From Candidatus Omnitrophota bacterium (GTDB lineage Bacteria; Omnitrophota; Gorgyraeia; Zapsychrales; Fredricksoniimonadaceae), in assembly GCA_015232565.1 (NCBI GenBank), contig JADFZK010000024.1, positions 1-41,541 on the forward strand: 41,541 nt of DNA, given 5' to 3'. Shown here one piece after another: positions 17,075 through 30,981 of the stretch. The notes under the pieces are model-generated. The model had not been told where the DNA came from, did not search any database, and saw nothing but the letters and a program-made list of their open reading frames with translations. The translations under genes and the position numbers were made by a program. Every line of letters begins with the position of its first letter. Position 1 is the first letter of the stretch.

Positions 17075-17512
17075 TTAGGAAGATTCAAATCTCCCACTTA
17101 ACCAAACTTCGATCTTCTGCCTGATCTCTTCTCTTACGGCCCTAGTCTTTACGATCTTCTCTTCCCAGGTGCCTTCAAACTTTGACGGGTCCGTGAATCC
17201 CCAATGCAACCTCTTGGCAACACCGGGGAATATCGGGCAACGCTCCGCGCTGGTTTCGTCGCAGACAGTGATCACATAACTATAGAGCTTGCTCTGCTTG
17301 AGGAGATCCATAACGGCCTGCGTCTTCTTGCCGGTGATGTCGATGCCGATCTCCTTCAGTACTTCAATGACAACAGGGTTCAGCTTCCCGGGCTCGATCC
17401 CGGCGCTTTCAACCTCAAACCTGTCACCCGCCAGCTTCCGGAGAAGCTCCTCGGCCATCTGGCTGCGAGCCGAGTTATGAATACAAACGAACAAGACTTT
17501 CTGCTTTGACAT
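17075..17512 (-). CDS. arsC: Thioredoxin-coupled arsenate reductase ArsC
   Basis: ArsC reduces arsenate to arsenite using a cysteine relay regenerated by thioredoxin, and is of the low-molecular-weight phosphatase fold. The 145-residue protein has the P-loop CX5R (Cys10-IHNSA-Arg16), the relay cysteines Cys84 ([10 protein letters not shown]) and Cys92 (RCPIFPG), and the general-acid loop [11 protein letters not shown] start at the ATG at 17512, with AGGAGA about 5 nt upstream; the longer frame begins inside the ACR3 gene. It follows ACR3 by 11 nt and supplies that pump's substrate. Confidence 0.94.
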
Positions 17513-17523
17513 AATGATTCTCC

Positions 17524-18585
17524 TTATGAACAGCACCGTTTAACAAATAGAGTATTCTTCTCAAGTGACTTGGCCACATTAACCAGAGCGATCATCACAG
17601 GCACTTCTATCAGAGGGCCGATGACCGCCGCGAAGGCCACGCCCGAGTTGATCCCGAAGACAGCGATCGCAACCACAATGGCCAGCTCAAAGTTATTGCT
17701 CGCCGCTGTGAACGAAAGCGTGACAGTCTTGCTATGGTCTGCACCGGCCTTGCGGCTCATAAAGAACGACACAAAAAACATCACGATGAAATACACCAGA
17801 AGCGGAATCGCAATCCGTACGACATCCAGCGGGATCTTCACGATATATTCACCCTTGAGCGAGAACATAACGAATATGGTGAACAGCAGCGCAACCAAGG
17901 TGATCGGGCTGATACGAGGAATAAAAACCTTCTCGTACCACTCCTTCCCCTTCAACCGGAGCAGGACGAACCTTGAAATCATCCCTGCCAGGAACGGAAT
18001 GCCGAGGTAAATAAACACGCTCTTGGCGATCTGCATGATCGTGATATTAACCACGGCCCCTTTGAGCCCAAACCATCCGGGCAGGATCGTGATGAACACC
18101 CACGCGTACACAGAGAAGAATAAAACCTGAAAGACGGCATTGAACGCCACAAGACCGGCGCAGTATTCCGTGTCCCCATCGGCAAGGTCGTTCCAGACGA
18201 TCACCATCGCGATGCACCGGGCCAGCCCGATCAGGATCAGGCCCACCATATACTCCGGATACCCGCGCAAGAAGACGATCGCCAAAGCGAACATCAATAT
18301 CGGCCCGATAATCCAATTCTGAACAAGCGACAGGAGGAGGATCTTATAATCCTTGAACACATCGTGCAGCTCTTCGTATTTGACCTTCGCCAGCGGCGGG
18401 TACATCATCAGGATCAATCCGATTGCAATCGGAATGTTCGTTGTACCTGAATTGAACTGGTTCCAGAACCCGACAGTTCCGGGAACAAAGAACCCGACGC
18501 CAACGCCGGCCGCCATCGCAATGAATATCCATAGCGTTAAATAACGATCAAGGAACGACAATTCTTTCTTTGAGTTTTCCGCCAT
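17524..18585 (-). CDS. acr3: ACR3-family arsenite efflux permease
   Basis: ACR3 exports arsenite using the proton motive force. The 353-residue protein has about ten hydrophobic helices and the family's key cysteine, Cys124, in [49 protein letters not shown] near the N-terminus and [20 protein letters not shown] near the C-terminus are also characteristic. It is often annotated as ArsB, but it belongs to the bile/arsenite/riboflavin transporter superfamily, not the E. coli ArsB family. No ArsA ATPase gene is nearby. It lies between the ArsG-like gene and arsC. Confidence 0.94.
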
Positions 18586-18595
18586 GCCCGTCTCC

Positions 18596-19285
18596 TTAAC
18601 TTACATTGATGAAGTGCATCCAAATATAGTAAAACCCGACCAGAATAAAGATCGCACCGGTAATTCGCCGGGTATAAAGTTCCAACCGCGCCAGCTTGTG
18701 AAACCACTGGTTGAGTGATTTCACACCCAGCGCTATCGCAATGGCAAAGAACAAGACCGGCAAACCAGTTCCTAAACCATAAAAGAGCGGAAGCATGGCG
18801 CCGCCTTTAGTCTTCAACGCTAACGGAATAAGACTACCGAAGAATAATGCCGCCGATACCGGGCAAAATGACAACGCAAACAATGACCCCAATCCCAATG
18901 CTCCCCAAGAGCCCGAATCAGCCATCCGGTTCTGACGCTCACAAGAAAGATTCACGCCCGGCAAACTGAACTTGAAGATGTCCAACAACAACACGCCCAC
19001 CACAACCAATGCAGGGCCAAAGAGTTTGTTCATATTCCCCTGCAAGAAGTGAGCCACAGACGGAACGCTCAAGAGCGACTGGATAATGAGAACTCCCAGA
19101 ATGGCATACGCCAACATCCGCCCAAGCGTATACGCGAAACCCGCCCAAAGCACGGCATTCACATGAAGGACCTTCTTGGACAGAAAGGAAATCGCGGCGA
19201 TATTCGTCGCCAAGGGGCACGGGCTTATTGATGTCAGTACGCCTAACCACAAGGCTGTTCCGACTGCGAGAAAGAACTCGATCAT
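18596..19285 (-). CDS. arsG: ArsG-family CcdA-like permease
   Basis: This is a 229-residue membrane protein of the CcdA/DsbD fold with about six helices. Two cysteine motifs, [10 protein letters not shown] (Cys23) and [13 protein letters not shown] (Cys141), match the paired transmembrane cysteines used for electron transfer. In arsenic islands the family carrying these and partnered with ArsF is annotated as ArsG, a putative efflux or redox permease for aromatic arsenicals. The start is the ATG at 19285, sharing bases with the arsF stop (TGATG); a GTG at 19288 is an alternative. Direct proof of transport is lacking for this clade, so the substrate is inference. Confidence 0.82.
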
Positions 19286-19794
19286 CACAGCTCCCCCAAG
19301 AACGGCTTGATCTCATCACGAACATACGCGTGGTACTGATTCTGATCCCGAAGAAGATCCCAAACTTTCTCAAGGTTCTTGTACCTCACCTGCTTCCCAT
19401 TCTTAACCAATGAAAGAACCACAGACTTGGTGTACAGCTGATAGTCCGTCACGAAGTGATCATTCCCGGCCTGGTCAAGATTGACAACCTTGAACACCAT
19501 CCTGCCGTCCTTTAACTCATTAGCAAAATTCTGCTCAAGTGCCTCTTTGGCGTATTGCTCAAGCTTGTAACAGGAGGGACACCGTGCATTACCGTGAAAA
19601 TAGTAAACCACTACCTGTGAAGGCAAAGACATCGCTGGCTGCGCGCTCTCCGCCGCCTCTGCGACATTAACACCAGCCAGTGAATCCGTGGTCTTCTTCA
19701 TGCCCGTTAACTGGCAAACACCAGAACTCCGGGGAAAGAAGCCGACAAAAGCCAAACCCACAATAAACAGAAGAGCAACTCCATACTTTCTCAT
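19285..19794 (-). CDS. arsF: ArsF-family thioredoxin-like lipoprotein or membrane-anchored protein
   Basis: This 169-residue protein has an N-terminal hydrophobic anchor or signal (residues 1-21) and then a thioredoxin-like domain with CPSC at Cys72-Cys75 in YYFHGNARCPSCYKLEQYA. The C-terminal half (NLDQAGNDHFVTDYQLYTKSVVL) is typical of ArsF-annotated proteins. It is probably extracytoplasmic and would exchange electrons with the CcdA-like ArsG encoded immediately downstream (stop and start share bases). It lies 2 nt after the DGC protein. The precise reaction in arsenic metabolism is not established. Confidence 0.82.
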   Translation of the reverse strand: MRKYGVALLFIVGLAFVGFFPRSSGVCQLTGMKKTTDSLAGVNVAEAAESAQPAMSLPSQVVVYYFHGNARCPSCYKLEQYAKEALEQNFANELKDGRMVFKVVNLDQAGNDHFVTDYQLYTKSVVLSLVKNGKQVRYKNLEKVWDLLRDQNQYHAYVRDEIKPFLGEL

Positions 19795-19796
19795 CC

Positions 19797-20153
19797 CTAT
19801 ACCCCCAGTTTTGCAACAACTTCGTTAATAGTCCCCTCTGTACACGGTGTCTTACCTTTTTCATAACCCATATCTTTCAAGTTAATGAATCGGGCTGGTA
19901 ACCCAACCTTTTCCAAAGTCTTTTTGCCGCAATCAACCGGGCAACCATCAATCACGATCAACTCTTTCGCCGATCTGCTGGACTCAATCATCCCGGAAAG
20001 ACCTGCCCCAAGTCCCGCCAGACAATACATCTTGCCCTTGCCGTCCTTTGCCATCCTGCGCGCCACGCGGTCCGACAACTCACCGACATCTGATCCCCCG
20101 GAACAAGCAAATATCAGCGTCGGTTTCTCTCCACACATACACGAATCTGCCAT
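19797..20153 (-). CDS. DGC-domain putative zinc-binding protein
   Basis: This 118-residue cytoplasmic protein of the DGC family has cysteines at conserved places: IFACSGGSDVGELSDRVAR (Cys17), MYCLAGLGAG (Cys44) and the family-naming VIDGCPVDCGKK (Cys71, Cys75). An N-terminal SCMCGEK adds two more. Family members are described as putative metal-binding proteins and often occur in arsenic and selenium gene clusters. It sits between the small thiol-redox protein and ArsF. Arsenite binding through the cysteine set is plausible but is inference. Confidence 0.85.
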   Translation of the reverse strand: MADSCMCGEKPTLIFACSGGSDVGELSDRVARRMAKDGKGKMYCLAGLGAGLSGMIESSRSAKELIVIDGCPVDCGKKTLEKVGLPARFINLKDMGYEKGKTPCTEGTINEVVAKLGV

Positions 20154-20180: not shown

Positions 20181-20411
20181 CTACACGATAAGTTTCTTAA
20201 TTTGCTCAACTGTTAAAACCTTACCAGCGGCTTTTACTTCCCCATCGATAACGATTGCCGGAGTCGTCATGATCCCATAACCCACAATCTGGTTCATATC
20301 TTCCACCTTGACCACTTCCGCCTGAACGCCTGTTTCCTTGACCGCCTTCTCGGCATTTGCCATCAACTGCTTACACTTGGCGCACCCCATACCCAAAATT
20401 TCTATCTTCAT
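20181..20411 (-). CDS. Small thioredoxin-like redox-active disulfide protein
   Basis: This 76-residue protein has the glutaredoxin/thioredoxin mini-fold of the TM0996/MTH895 type: MKIEILGMGCAKCKQLMANA with a CxxC at Cys10-Cys13, cis-Pro in IMTTPAIVIDG, and a terminal VEQIKKLIV helix. It is a cytoplasmic thiol-disulfide carrier. Overlap with arsM (4 nt) puts it in the arsenic operon. ArsM and ArsC both need thiol reductant, so it may serve one of them in place of general thioredoxin. That assignment is inference. Confidence 0.88.
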   Translation of the reverse strand: MKIEILGMGCAKCKQLMANAEKAVKETGVQAEVVKVEDMNQIVGYGIMTTPAIVIDGEVKAAGKVLTVEQIKKLIV

Positions 20412-21190
20412 TTCTCTGCTCCTTTAGGTTTAACGGCGCTGACCTTAATACTGATGACCGCGCCTGCCATGCCCTGTTCCTGCACTGGATATTCGTCCTG
20501 ACTTACTACTGCAACACCCTTAAACCCCGCCTGCTCAATAGCATTCAAATACTTGTCTTTCATGATCGCGCCTGCAAGGCAGCCGACATAAGCCTCGACA
20601 GCCTTCTTCACCTTGACCGGAAGCTCTTTTGCCAATACCAGATCGGAAACCATGATCCTTCCGCCCGGCTTTAGGACCCTGAACGCTTCTTTGAACACCG
20701 ACTTCTTATTGGGGGCAAGATTGATCACGCAGTTTGAAATGATCGCATCGATCACCCCATCCTCAACGGGGAGCTTCTCGATCTCACCCAGCCTGAACTC
20801 CACATTCTTATAATTACCCTTAACCGCGTTCGCTTTTGCCCTCTTAACCATCGCCGGGGTCATATCGACACCAATCACCCGACCCGCTGCACCAACACGC
20901 GGCGAGACAAGGAACGCATCAAAACCCGCCCCGCTGCCAAGATCAAGAACGACCTCGCCCTTCTTGATCGATGCGATCGCCACCGGATTGCCACAACCAA
21001 GCCCCAAGTTCGCCCCGTCAGGAATACTATTCATTTCCTTGTTGGTGTACCCAACGCTTTTGCTTATTGCCGATGGCGAATCAGTCCCGCTGCAACAGCC
21101 AGACGAAGAACAACAGGAAACCCCCTGCCTCGCGACCCTGGAGTATCCCTTCTTCACGATAGCCTTAATCTGCTTTGCATTACGCGCCAT
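20408..21190 (-). CDS. arsM: Arsenite S-adenosylmethionine methyltransferase ArsM
   Basis: ArsM methylates arsenite to mono- to trimethylated species. The 260-residue protein has the SAM-binding VVLDLGSGAGFDAFL motif and the three catalytic cysteines: Cys66 (GLGCGNP), Cys153 (ISNCVINL) and Cys204 (YVGCLAGAI). An N-terminal Cys-rich patch (VSCCSSSGCCSG, 24-35) may pre-bind As(III). I start at the ATG at 21190, with GAGGTGAAG just upstream; a GTG at 21199 overlaps that signal. It is followed by the thiol-redox protein with a 4-nt overlap and preceded by the ArsP-like permease. Confidence 0.95.
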   Translation of the reverse strand: MARNAKQIKAIVKKGYSRVARQGVSCCSSSGCCSGTDSPSAISKSVGYTNKEMNSIPDGANLGLGCGNPVAIASIKKGEVVLDLGSGAGFDAFLVSPRVGAAGRVIGVDMTPAMVKRAKANAVKGNYKNVEFRLGEIEKLPVEDGVIDAIISNCVINLAPNKKSVFKEAFRVLKPGGRIMVSDLVLAKELPVKVKKAVEAYVGCLAGAIMKDKYLNAIEQAGFKGVAVVSQDEYPVQEQGMAGAVISIKVSAVKPKGAEK

Positions 21191-21202
21191 AATCTTCACC
21201 TC

Positions 21203-22153
21203 TTAACGCAGAATGAAATTGAATAAATACCCGGTACAAATGATGCCTACGCCGACAACCGAGGCGAAGATAACCAGAAGCTTCAGTTTCATCACCCGTC
21301 GCAGGATCAGGAACTCCGGCAAGGAAAGCCCGGTAACAGCCATCATGAACGCCAACGCCGTACCAAGAGCCACGCCCTTCTCGGTCAAGGCGCTGACCAA
21401 CGGAATAACACCGGCCGCATTCGAATAGAGTGGAATCCCAACAACGGTTGCCAGCGGCACCGCAAACCAATTATCGCGCCCGGCGAACTTCGCCAGAAAA
21501 TCGGCAGGAACATACCCGTGAATCCACGCGCCAAGACCAATGCCGATCACCACATAGATCCAAATCTTCTTGAGAATGTCCAAGGTATAATCCTTGGCAA
21601 AATCAATCCGGTCTTTGACTGTCATCTCGGCACCGAGAACCGCGCTCCCTGGTTTCTTGTGATCAAACTTCTCCACCAGGTCCTCAACCTTCAGATGCCC
21701 GATCACGATACCGGAGGCAATGGCCACAACAAGACCACTTCCGATATACAAAAGTGCAACCTTCCACCCGAACATGCCCCAAAGCATGATCAGTGCTACC
21801 TCATTGATCATGGGTGAAGCCACCAGGAACGAGAAAGTCACCCCAAGCGGCACTCCCGCCTCGACAAACCCAAGAAACAATGGCACGGCACTGCAAGAAC
21901 AGAACGGCGTCACAATGCCAAGCAGCGACGCCAAGACATTGCCCGCGTATGTTCTCTTCTGGCTGAGAATTGCCCTCGTCTTCTCCGGTGAAAAGAATGT
22001 CCTGATGATGGAAACGATAAAGATGATGACGATCAGCAGAAGAAAGATCTTTATCGTATCGTACAGAAAGAAGTCCACCGCTTCGGACAGAATGGCCCCG
22101 TGCGGCATCTTGAAGATTTCATAAACTAACCAATCAATCACAGGCTTGATCAT
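21203..22153 (-). CDS. arsP: ArsP-like permease (UPF0718/DUF318)
   Basis: This 316-residue polytopic membrane protein has about 8-9 hydrophobic helices. The family hallmark is FCSCSAVPLFLGFVEAGVPLGVTFSFLVASPMIN (Cys85, Cys87), with a second repeat-like half ending YSNAAGVIPLVSALTEKGVALGTALAFMMAVTGLSLPE. Characterised ArsP proteins export trivalent organoarsenicals, and ArsM next door makes such compounds, so the pairing supports the call. Other family members have unrelated or unknown substrates. It overlaps the regulator gene by 4 nt and is the first structural gene of the operon. Confidence 0.87.
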   Translation of the reverse strand: MIKPVIDWLVYEIFKMPHGAILSEAVDFFLYDTIKIFLLLIVIIFIVSIIRTFFSPEKTRAILSQKRTYAGNVLASLLGIVTPFCSCSAVPLFLGFVEAGVPLGVTFSFLVASPMINEVALIMLWGMFGWKVALLYIGSGLVVAIASGIVIGHLKVEDLVEKFDHKKPGSAVLGAEMTVKDRIDFAKDYTLDILKKIWIYVVIGIGLGAWIHGYVPADFLAKFAGRDNWFAVPLATVVGIPLYSNAAGVIPLVSALTEKGVALGTALAFMMAVTGLSLPEFLILRRVMKLKLLVIFASVVGVGIICTGYLFNFILR

Positions 22154-22467
22154 TTTTCACGCCCCTTCATCTGCTCACCGGCCACCGTACAACAACCACC
22201 TTCGATCCTGATGGCCTTGATGTTAACCAGCCCATCCGCAACCTTCTTGTGAGCCCTGGCAAGTATCCGTGTGAATGTTGAACGGGATACCTTCATAAGT
22301 TTCGCCGCAGGAGCGTGAGCCATTTCCTCAAGGTCAGCCAGACGGATAGCTTCGAACTCATCAATGGTCAACACAACACCTTCCAGTTCCCCCGGCTTCT
22401 TGCACTTCGGACGAAAACATCTTTCGCCCGGCAAACATTTAACCCATCTGGTCTTCTGTGGTCTCAT
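22150..22467 (-). CDS. DUF134/UPF0251 DNA-binding regulator of the arsenic operon
   Basis: This 105-residue protein of the DUF134 (UPF0251) family has a sigma-70-region-4-like helix-turn-helix: LTIDEFEAIRLADLEEMAHAPAAKLMKVSRSTFTRILARAHKKVADGL. Cysteines at 11, 17 and 22 and a CysCys pair at 92-93 could form a metalloid or metal site. The ATG at 22467 has GGAGGG 5 nt upstream, whereas the longer frame from 22488 begins inside the operator. It heads the arsenic operon, overlaps arsP by 4 nt, and no ArsR is present. A 10-bp-arm inverted repeat covers its promoter, so self-repression relieved by arsenic is the natural hypothesis. Confidence 0.88.
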   Translation of the reverse strand: MRPQKTRWVKCLPGERCFRPKCKKPGELEGVVLTIDEFEAIRLADLEEMAHAPAAKLMKVSRSTFTRILARAHKKVADGLVNIKAIRIEGGCCTVAGEQMKGREK

Positions 22468-22478
22468 TACACCCTCCA

Positions 22479-22502
22479 TATTATGCACTATGGTGCATAA
22501 TA
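22479..22502. promoter_or_regulatory. Perfect inverted repeat, operator of the arsenic operon
   Basis: Arms TATTATGCAC (22479-22488) and GTGCATAATA (22493-22502) are perfectly complementary over 10 bp around a 4-nt centre TATG. The site overlaps the -10 hexamer of the promoter at 22499-22526 and ends 11 bp before the regulator's ATG. The DUF134 protein is the obvious candidate ligand, though binding is inferred from position. Confidence 0.75.
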
Positions 22503-22526
22503 TAGCACAGATAATACCGATGTCAA
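22499..22526 (-). promoter_or_regulatory. Promoter of the DUF134/arsenic operon
   Basis: On the minus strand a perfect TTGACA (22521-22526) and TATATT (22499-22504) are separated by 16 bp. The -10 is partly inside the inverted repeat at 22479-22502, so a bound repressor would exclude RNA polymerase. Confidence 0.72.
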
Positions 22527-27459: not shown

Positions 27460-27707
27460 CATTTTTCCTTCTTTTCGTTATTCTTTAATACCTTTCGCAA
27501 AGCACCCGCACCATGCGTCAACCCTGCAATAGCGCCACCTACCAGCGCCGCTGTTCCCAAGCCCACCGGACAACTCTGTCCACCACAACAAGGGCAACGG
27601 CCTGCCATCATATAAACGCCACTCGTCATGATCCACGTCTGATAAAAACTCGCCGGGATAACAAATTTCTTTCCCGCAGAAAGGCTCGCAGTGTTTTTAT
27701 TATTCAT
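27459..27707 (-). CDS. Hypothetical small cysteine-rich membrane protein
   Basis: I do not recognise this 82-residue protein. It has a cysteine-dense segment CPCCGGQSCPVG at about residues 38-49, then a Gly/Ala-rich hydrophobic helix (LGTAALVGGAIAGLTHGAGAL) and a basic tail. Four cysteines within nine residues suggest metal or sulfur binding at the membrane surface. The start at 27707 overlaps the DUF134 gene by 8 nt and the stop overlaps the C_GCAxxG gene. It is a tightly coupled member of the second DUF134 operon. Confidence 0.75.
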   Translation of the reverse strand: MNNKNTASLSAGKKFVIPASFYQTWIMTSGVYMMAGRCPCCGGQSCPVGLGTAALVGGAIAGLTHGAGALRKVLKNNEKKEK

Positions 27708-28026
27708 TTCTTGCCCCCGCCTTTTCCGCCTGAGCTTTTCTCATCAATTTAGGACAATTGATCCGGATCGCCCGCCCCCGAATAAGGGCTTCCGCTATCT
27801 TCTGATGGGCACGATTGATAATGTTACTGAAAGTCGGACGGGAAACCCCCATCCTCCTTGCGGCCTCAGCCTGATACTCTCCATCAAGATCAGCCAGCCT
27901 GACCGCCTCGATCTCATCAACCTCCAAAACAACTTCCGCTGGCCCGGGCTCAGGAAATTCCTCTGGCCTGAAATAACCGGCTTTCAGCTTGAGACACACG
28001 GTGCGTTTCTTGCACGGCCTTGCCAT
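27700..28026 (-). CDS. DUF134/UPF0251 DNA-binding regulator of the sulfur operon
   Basis: This 108-residue paralogue of the regulator at 22150 shares the pattern EVDEIEAVRLADLDGEYQAEAARRMGVSRPTFSNIINRAHQKIAEAL. It has only three cysteines (5, 11 and 91), lacking the CysCys pair of its arsenic-operon counterpart, so its effector may differ. AAAGG precedes the ATG. It is the first gene of the operon containing the reductase-rhodanese, peroxiredoxin and YeeE/YedE genes. A perfect palindrome covers its promoter. Self-repression relieved by a sulfur or metal signal is inferred. Confidence 0.88.
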   Translation of the reverse strand: MARPCKKRTVCLKLKAGYFRPEEFPEPGPAEVVLEVDEIEAVRLADLDGEYQAEAARRMGVSRPTFSNIINRAHQKIAEALIRGRAIRINCPKLMRKAQAEKAGARNE

Positions 28027-28042
28027 AACAACCTTTCATTTG

Positions 28043-28064
28043 ATTATTGACATATGTCAATAAT
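28043..28064. promoter_or_regulatory. Perfect 22-bp palindrome, operator of the sulfur operon
   Basis: Two 11-bp arms, ATTATTGACAT and ATGTCAATAAT, abut with no spacer. It overlaps the -10 at 28060-28065 and lies 17 bp before the regulator ATG. Its outer part (ATTATTG) resembles the arm of the arsenic-operon operator (ATTATGC). Confidence 0.78.
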
Positions 28065-28695: not shown

Positions 28696-29648
28696 CGCGG
28701 CTCCTGTACTATCGAAAACCCAAACTGCTGCGCTATCTCCAAAACATCATCGCGCTCATCACCGGAAACATTAAGGTAGCCGTTCATAAATATTCCGTCG
28801 ACAATCTGCAATACGAGAGGCTGAACGGTTCGAAGATACAATTCCCTTCCCGCCGCCAGACAAAGTTCGGCCCGCGGATTGATCAAACGAAACAGGCACA
28901 GCACACGCAAACAATAATCAACAGATAATCGCGGCCTTTCCCCAAGCGTCGAGCCTTCAAGCGGGATGTAAAAGTTTACCGGCACACAGGTCACGCCCAG
29001 CTCCTTTAAGCGCATTGCTGTTGAAACAATATCTTCGGACGACTCACCCATACCGACGATCAGTCCAGAGCACACAGGCAACCCAACAGCGTTGCAAGCT
29101 TCAACCGTCCTGATCCTGTCCGCATAAGAATGGGTCGTACATATCTGCGGATAAAAATTCTCCGATGTGTTCAGGTTATGGTGCAGACGGTCGACGCCCG
29201 CTTCTTTTAATGCTATTGATTGCTCTCTGTCAACAAACCCGGCCGACACACAAACCTTAAGCGCCGTCTCTTCTTTAATCTTACGCACAACAGCAGAAAC
29301 TTTCTTAAGCCTTTCCTGAAACAAAGCCCGTCCTGAAAAAACAATCCCGTAACAACCTGCCCCTTGTCGGGAAGCCCTTACTGCTTCACGAACAATCGCA
29401 TCTTCACTTTTCGCCCCTTCATTTACCAGACTTGCCCGGGAATCCCGCGACTGCACGCAATACCGGCAATCCTCGGAACAATGCCCGTTATGCGCGTTAT
29501 TGATCATGTGAACACTTAATTGCTTGCCAAAATGCGCCGTCCTTTGGCAATAAGCTGCCCCCACAAGCTCTCGCGTGTCCAGATCACGCCCCTCAAGAAT
29601 TCGCAAGCACTCCTGAAAAGACAAGTCTGCCAAAGAATCAATGGGCAT
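28692..29648 (-). CDS. bioB: Biotin synthase (radical SAM)
   Basis: BioB inserts sulfur into dethiobiotin using a radical-SAM 4Fe-4S cluster and a sacrificial 2Fe-2S cluster. The 318-residue protein has the radical-SAM motif CSEDCRYC, the substrate-site LHHNLNTSENFYP, and family-like CTTHSYADRIRTVE. Candidate 2Fe-2S ligands are the Cys in GAGCYGIVFSGR, the Cys in LKVCVSAGF, the Cys in LPVCSGLIVGMGE and the Arg in LAAGRELYL. No other bio genes are present here. It overlaps its neighbours on both sides, inside an operon otherwise devoted to metal and Fe-S-type chemistry, which makes either biotin supply or a related sulfur insertion possible. Confidence 0.88.
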   Translation of the reverse strand: MPIDSLADLSFQECLRILEGRDLDTRELVGAAYCQRTAHFGKQLSVHMINNAHNGHCSEDCRYCVQSRDSRASLVNEGAKSEDAIVREAVRASRQGAGCYGIVFSGRALFQERLKKVSAVVRKIKEETALKVCVSAGFVDREQSIALKEAGVDRLHHNLNTSENFYPQICTTHSYADRIRTVEACNAVGLPVCSGLIVGMGESSEDIVSTAMRLKELGVTCVPVNFYIPLEGSTLGERPRLSVDYCLRVLCLFRLINPRAELCLAAGRELYLRTVQPLVLQIVDGIFMNGYLNVSGDERDDVLEIAQQFGFSIVQEPR

Positions 29649-30981
29649 CAGCTTTCATCCTTTTCCTGCCGCACCAGATAATAAAAGCCGCCAACAACAA
29701 GACTCCGATAATCAGCCCAATGGAAACGGCAATGCTATTCAAGAGTGCCGGGCGACAAACAAGCAAGCCGCCTAAGCCCAACATCATAAGACCTGAAACC
29801 AGCTTCAGAACACGCCCTTCCTCCTCAGTCAACTTACGCGACCCCAGTGTTGAAGAGAAAACCAGAACGATCACCAGAAGAGGGATCACATAGATCACAT
29901 TATAAAATACAAGATACAAATAATATTGCGCGGCTGGAAGCTGCTGAAGCGTGAGCGCCCTCGTAAAAACCATAGGAAATCCGGCGGTACACAGCAATTC
30001 ATACATATTGGCCATGACTGCAAGAACGACCGTGCCCACAATAAGTCCGCCGATCGAACCCGAGCTGATCAGTCCGCGCATCTTCGTGATCAAAGACGCC
30101 TGCGCTTTCTTTGAGATAGTCAAAGATACGCCCTGCTTGAAATAAAAATAATCTTTAATATTAATCGCCGCCATGACGACTGCGATAAGCCCGGCGATGG
30201 CCGTGATCACCGCGACCCTGCCTGTAACCATAAAAAGATTCAGCCATGCGGCCATAAAAAGAAAATAGATAAAGCCTGAGAAGAAAACGAACACGCCTCC
30301 TACAATCAACATCTTCATGCGTGACTGGGCGTGAACCATAAGACTCAACAGCATAAGCAACACAAAGAACGCACAGGGATTAAAACCGTCAAGTCCAGCC
30401 AAAACTACCGTCAAAATCGGCAATGAGATCTTGGCTGTATCAACAACGCCAAGAAGCGGCAACGTCTCCTTGGTTGATTCTTCCTGTTGCGGCTTGCGGG
30501 GCAGTTCCGTCTTTTGCGGTGCGACTGAACTCATCGCCAACGTCATCAAAGGCTTCGTTGTTTCGCCAACAGATTGTGCCTGACTCATCAAATCCGCCGG
30601 GTCAAGACAGGAAAATTGCCTACACTGTTCGACAGTCTCTTCAATCTCCTTGGCCTTCGCGTCGTTATAACCTATCCATGATTTGATGTCGATAAATGTC
30701 GCCGGAACACTGCCGCTGGTCAATCCATAAGCAGCCGACATCTTTCGATAAATCTCTTTGTTGCCAACATCGTGCCAGACTTCGTAATCTTTAATGATAA
30801 GACTGGGATATTTTGTCTTTAAACCCTCCAGAAACGGTTTCTCATGCTCGCAATGCGGGCAACCTTGTCCCCAGAAGAAATACACCACCACCTTGCGTCC
30901 CGCTTCATCAGCCCGTAATGCCCCGGCTGCATAAGACAACGCAAACAAAACAAGAAAGACAAAAAGGATCTTCCTGATCAT
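29638..30981 (-). CDS. Thioredoxin-CcdA/DsbD-like fusion membrane protein
   Basis: This is a 447-residue protein. A signal peptide or anchor (1-23) is followed by an extracytoplasmic thioredoxin domain with CPHC at Cys41-Cys44 (FFWGQGCPHCEHEKPF), a low-complexity linker (about 140-180), and a CcdA-like membrane domain of about six helices. The membrane domain has paired cysteines in GFNPCAFFVLL and YELLCTAGFPM. Such proteins carry electrons from the cytoplasm to the periplasmic side. It abuts the metallo-hydrolase gene and overlaps bioB by 11 nt. The domain order is thioredoxin first, unlike canonical DsbD. Substrate unknown. Confidence 0.87.
   Translation of the reverse strand: MIRKILFVFLVLFALSYAAGALRADEAGRKVVVYFFWGQGCPHCEHEKPFLEGLKTKYPSLIIKDYEVWHDVGNKEIYRKMSAAYGLTSGSVPATFIDIKSWIGYNDAKAKEIEETVEQCRQFSCLDPADLMSQAQSVGETTKPLMTLAMSSVAPQKTELPRKPQQEESTKETLPLLGVVDTAKISLPILTVVLAGLDGFNPCAFFVLLMLLSLMVHAQSRMKMLIVGGVFVFFSGFIYFLFMAAWLNLFMVTGRVAVITAIAGLIAVVMAAINIKDYFYFKQGVSLTISKKAQASLITKMRGLISSGSIGGLIVGTVVLAVMANMYELLCTAGFPMVFTRALTLQQLPAAQYYLYLVFYNVIYVIPLLVIVLVFSSTLGSRKLTEEEGRVLKLVSGLMMLGLGGLLVCRPALLNSIAVSIGLIIGVLLLAAFIIWCGRKRMKADAH

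Follow-up and report, generated by a model that had tools for sequence, protein, structure and literature searches.

What controls an arsenic resistance operon that has no gene for ArsR? Most ars operons are under the control of ArsR/SmtB proteins, and the ArsR types R773, AfArsR, CgArsR and ArArsR are distinguished (PMC11868830). The window considered here, that is, the whole analysed stretch of 41,541 nucleotides, comes from Omnitrophota, a large group of uncultivated bacteria, where ars operons are headed by genes of the DUF134 (UPF0251) family. On its minus strand, a run of nine overlapping or narrowly spaced genes extends from the DUF134 gene to arsC (17075). Pfam and NCBIfam profiles yield the order DUF134-ArsP-ArsM-ArsE-like-DGC-ArsF-ArsG-ACR3-ArsC (Table 1). 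The sequence-only reading had proposed a 105-residue DUF134 protein as the first product of this operon, with an ArsP-like permease, ArsM, ArsF, ArsG, ACR3 and ArsC downstream; the profiles bear this out and add the ArsE-like and DGC genes. The PF02001 match covers residues 2-91, the gathering cut-off being 27 bits. The gene overlaps make a single operon transcript likely, and the DUF134 gene lies inside the operon that its product would control. The ACR3 of the window is the only one found in the genome.

Table 1. Features of the ars operon and of the region upstream of its first gene (positions in the window)
Feature	Position	Strand	Evidence or remark
-35 element TTGACA	22521..22526	-	read from sequence
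-10 element TATATT	22499..22504	-	read from sequence; overlaps operator
Operator, perfect palindrome ATATTATGCAC-CATA-GTGCATAATAT	22478..22503	.	11-bp arms, 4-nt loop
Shine-Dalgarno GGAGG	22473..22477	-	read from sequence
ars-type DUF134 regulator (predicted), 105 aa	22150..22467	-	ATG 22467, stop 22150; PF02001 73.4 bits
Region with codons for Cys11, Cys17, Cys22	22402..22437	-	conserved in ars-linked DUF134s
Recognition-helix codons 61-67 (SRSTFTR; helix predicted)	22267..22287	-	covariation with the operator: Ser63 with base 6, Arg67 with base 5
Codons for Cys92-Cys93 pair	22189..22194	-	conserved in ars-linked DUF134s
ArsP-type permease	21203..22153	-	PF03773 (ArsP_1) 273 bits; start overlaps DUF134 stop codon
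ArsM arsenite methyltransferase	20408..21199	-	NF008823 338 bits, cut-off 263
ArsE-like thioredoxin	20181..20411	-	TIGR00412
DGC-domain protein	19797..20153	-	PF08859
ArsF-family protein	19285..19794	-	NF040494
ArsG-family permease	18596..19288	-	NF040495 276 bits, cut-off 200
ACR3 arsenite efflux transporter	17524..18585	-	TIGR00832 461 bits
Thioredoxin-type arsenate reductase ArsC	17075..17536	-	TIGR02691 118 bits, below cut-off 174; LMWPc

No ArsR was found in the window, in agreement with the initial claim that the operon has none. The single ArsR/SmtB protein found in the genome is encoded on a different contig, where its gene follows that of a SulP transporter, unlinked to the ars operon, and control of the promoter by this distant ArsR was rejected on these grounds. 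With an assembly of 80 contigs at 94% completeness, an overlooked ArsR is possible but unlikely. The DUF134 protein is not itself a member of ArsR/SmtB, since neither the HTH_5 (PF01022) nor the HTH_20 (PF12840) winged-helix domain matched it.

We then considered whether the linkage is conserved in relatives. DUF134 proteins or their relatives were found in 212 of the 384 genomes of the class. One hundred neighbourhoods of the best matches were searched with the ars proteins of the window, and 93 of them were informative (at least 1.5 kb downstream). In 91 of these 93, an ars gene lies on the same strand within 1 kb downstream of the DUF134 ortholog, the first being arsP (67 loci), ACR3 (15), arsM (5), arsF (3) or arsC (1). 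Thus a chance neighbourhood was rejected. The ars-type DUF134 gene of locus L088 is an exception, being located away from ars genes. In locus L135, a variant of the ars type ending GGAC instead of GGCC lies beside a cation-diffusion transporter gene, and a switch of metal is possible; its further neighbours, with functions judged by eye, are an FmdE-like protein and a TSUP-like permease. In locus L137, arsP is preceded by two DUF134 genes in tandem, and both C-terminal cysteines are lost from one of them.

ArsR was found near an ars-type DUF134 gene at two surveyed loci only (L087 and L171). The reverse survey, started from ACR3, covered 81 genomes of the order with 27 ACR3 genes above the cut-off. 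DUF134 accompanies 15 of these genes, ArsR 5, and neither regulator 7. At two loci (L288 and L289) ArsR heads the same gene order, ArsP-ArsM-ArsE-ArsF-ArsG-ACR3. Judged by gene order, one regulator seems to have been exchanged for the other as the first gene of the operon.

The DUF134 gene is preceded by a promoter, TTGACA-N16-TATATT, found where it had been proposed, and by a palindrome overlapping the -10 element. The palindrome had been described as a perfect inverted repeat with 10-bp arms at 22479-22502; it is indeed perfect and does overlap the -10 element, but the arms are 11 bp long and the repeat extends by one base on each side. Its conserved 20-bp core is at 22481-22500, and it is followed immediately by the Shine-Dalgarno box and the start codon of the DUF134 gene. 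With up to three mismatches allowed, the palindrome is unique in the window (0 expected). No second exact site of this type occurs in the genome, and the five places with three mismatches correspond to the background level of the reversed pattern.

The same signal recurs before most of 135 distinct DUF134 genes of the ars type, as anticipated by the suggestion that a related palindrome be sought there. The pattern TTATGMAC-N4-GTKCATAA occurs with at most two mismatches in 126 of the 135 upstream regions (consensus TTATGMACNNNNGTKCATAA) and exactly in 101, versus 8 of 13,500 shuffled upstream sequences, and thus an artefact was rejected. A logo anchored at the operator contains a conserved -35 element TTGACA and an extended -10 element (TGnTAAAAT) just upstream, in most relatives about 4 bp farther upstream than in the window. 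The operator overlaps the -10 box or follows it immediately, and the start codon mostly follows 12-16 nt downstream.

A pattern of this kind could belong to another regulator, DUF134 being a bystander. Exact sites in 1.28 Mb of neighbourhoods argue against this: 66 of 67 directly precede a DUF134 gene, and the remaining one is 450 bp before one. The exact pattern was found in 84 of the 384 genomes of the class, with no occurrence of the reversed control among the matches listed. An unbiased scan for the exact pattern, which covered 84,980 species, yielded at least 118 operator loci in many phyla, and among the 118 listed a DUF134 gene was found at 99. The remaining 19 are what speaks for the bystander, although several of them are cut by contig ends or appear to belong to longer inverted repeats. 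Such repeats enclose the perfect 20-bp palindrome in Kaiserbacteria and Paceibacterota (L149, L185, L192 and others), and no DUF134 gene was found there.

Moreover, a separate palindrome goes with each of three DUF134 types. The other types of Omnitrophota, which include the proteins encoded next to NifX-like genes, have operators of the TTATTGGC or TTATTGAC type with the same 20-bp architecture before the gene, and the NifX-neighbour proteins of this phylum with these operators have Asn67. The genome of the window contains four DUF134 genes and four family-type palindromes, one before each gene. The second DUF134 gene of the window (27700-28026, minus strand) has its own perfect palindrome, TTATTGACATATGTCAATAA, at 28044-28063; it is flanked by the region of a C_GCAxxG_C_C protein gene and by a methyltransferase gene. 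The other two genes have palindromes just upstream, at G000:C58:96-115 (L004) and G000:C23:8644-8663 (L002). Beyond the second DUF134 gene of the window, positions 29638-30981 encode a membrane protein of 447 aa that begins in a thioredoxin-like manner and gave no match in Pfam or NCBIfam.

The differences between operators track differences between proteins. An operator was recognised for 180 DUF134 genes, and among these residue 67 covaries with operator base 5: arginine is found with G in 159 of 159 cases and asparagine with T in 19 of 19, two rows having a gap. The second DUF134 protein of the window fits this code (Asn67/T5). Residue 63 covaries with base 6, proline being found with A in 103 cases and serine with C in 43. 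The base-6 rule holds for 145 of 151 sequences with serine or proline at this position, and of the six exceptions five are found with asymmetric operators, in which one half-site is odd. In the whole protein, no columns rank above residues 67 and 63 for bases 5 and 6, respectively. On the tree, residue 63 must have changed 11 times; on well-supported branches there are two independent pairs, and thus the contrast test for residue 63 and base 6 lacks formal significance. Since the operator bases follow residues of the DUF134 helix, and the three types have palindromes of their own, the bystander reading is hardly credible.

Both residues lie within helix 62-81, the recognition helix predicted from an AlphaFold2 model (mean pLDDT 82). 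A sequence search of PDB with the DUF134 protein gave no match. In a Foldseek search, its HTH matched sigma factor region 4 over approximately 47 residues (probability 1.0, E 0.07); SigR (5fgm) and SigmaE (2h27) are thus the closest solved HTH folds. Unlike a sigma factor, the DUF134 protein has no sigma region 2 and has additional cysteine-bearing ends. Given the retention of the operator in 126 of the 135 relatives and the residue-to-base covariation, the protein almost certainly binds its operator directly and autogenously, as far as comparison of sequences can tell.

The sign of the regulation is a separate matter. DUF134 might bind the palindrome but activate transcription, or it might autoregulate only itself, the ars genes being read passively. 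Binding sites alone give no sign of regulation, and the HTH does resemble region 4 of sigma factors. However, the operator at or after the -10 box covers the expected start of transcription, mostly 12-16 nt before the start codon, a position suited to repression, and the probable single transcript is at odds with regulation of the DUF134 gene alone. Activation or purely self-directed control is therefore very unlikely, and the DUF134 protein very probably acts as a repressor.

A regulator of arsenic resistance needs a sensor, and the five cysteines proposed for this role, Cys11, Cys17, Cys22 and the Cys92-Cys93 pair, are all present in the protein. We compared 133 ars-linked DUF134 proteins with 41 others. 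Cys11, Cys17, Cys22, Cys92 and Cys93 are conserved in 92%, 95%, 83%, 95% and 98% of the ars-linked proteins, whose columns are conserved at 77% on average, versus 39%, 10%, 5%, 5% and 7% of the others; 113 of the 133 retain Cys11, 17, 92 and 93 together. In a tree constructed without the cysteine columns, all 132 ars-linked sequences fall into one clade of 139 (SH-aLRT 94). The clade-specific conservation supports the proposed role of the cysteines. However, cysteines and ars linkage are inherited together in this clade, which comes close to a single evolutionary event, and the independent-pairs test for their association was not significant, there being too few well-supported pairs. The ends of the protein, including the C-terminal residues, are of low confidence in the AlphaFold2 model.

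Known ArsR proteins use three cysteines whose positions vary; in one type, MAs(III) is bound by two cysteines (PMC11868830). By analogy with this use of cysteines, the conserved residues most likely form a thiolate site for trivalent arsenic, though they could instead hold Zn or an Fe-S cluster. Indeed, DUF134 might directly autoregulate the ars operon in response to another effector, such as redox state, an Fe-S or Zn ion, or thiol depletion, arsenic induction being indirect. The neighbours of other DUF134 genes, plasmid examples among them, point in this direction: they mainly encode Nitro_FeMo-Co (NifX-like) proteins and methyltransferases, and some encode Fe-S proteins, so that the ancestral signal may have been of the Fe-S or metal kind. 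On the other hand, Cys17 and Cys92-Cys93 are nearly restricted to the ars-linked clade, the NifX-neighbour proteins mostly lacking them and having no ars genes nearby, and the operon alternates with versions headed by ArsR. We consider a non-arsenic effector unlikely, if a serious alternative, and take trivalent arsenic as the effector with good confidence.

Taken together, the DUF134 protein is probably the operon's own one-component regulator, a repressor released by arsenic and ArsR-like in function. Firstly, a homodimer would bind the dimer-sized palindrome by its sigma-region-4-like HTH, with G5 of each half-site read by Arg67 and base 6 by residue 63. Secondly, the bound dimer, covering the expected transcription start, would block RNA polymerase. 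Finally, As(III), and possibly MAs(III) or Sb(III) as well, would be bound by thiols of Cys11, Cys17, Cys22 and Cys92-Cys93, which flank the HTH in the sequence; this may weaken the hold on DNA and thus switch on the genes for efflux, methylation and reduction together with the regulator itself.

The likeness to ArsR consists in a small protein encoded by the first gene of an ars operon, an operator at its own promoter, and cysteine sets that are differently placed. However, the fold family is different: ArsR has a winged helix, whereas DUF134 has a sigma-region-4-like HTH and, beyond it, candidate cysteines at either end of the protein. It is reasonably likely that the DUF134 proteins are, as a whole family, DNA-binding autoregulators with a readable helix-to-operator code, and that one of their clades is an independently evolved kind of trivalent-arsenic sensor, which has no kinship with ArsR and governs arsenic resistance in much of this class of Omnitrophota. 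If so, a second, unrelated family has converged on the role of ArsR with its own cysteine sensor, which would give designers of arsenic biosensors another protein to begin from and would assign DUF134 its first function. The residue-to-base code makes the binding specificity addressable by single substitutions. We found no published function of DUF134 and no role in arsenic regulation in a search of 5.39 million papers that covered subscription journals thinly, so that earlier work may be missed; the operator strings did not occur in any of these papers, and the two that mention DUF134, judged by title, are on unrelated topics.

The family ranges over bacteria, archaea and plasmids of Enterobacteriaceae. 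No match was found in the phage records searched. On the Citrobacter plasmid pKPC-933d (L295) the DUF134 gene is followed by a NifX-like gene. DUF134 occurs on 186 further plasmid records and is recurrent on enterobacterial plasmids, which offer a tractable host for studies of the family.
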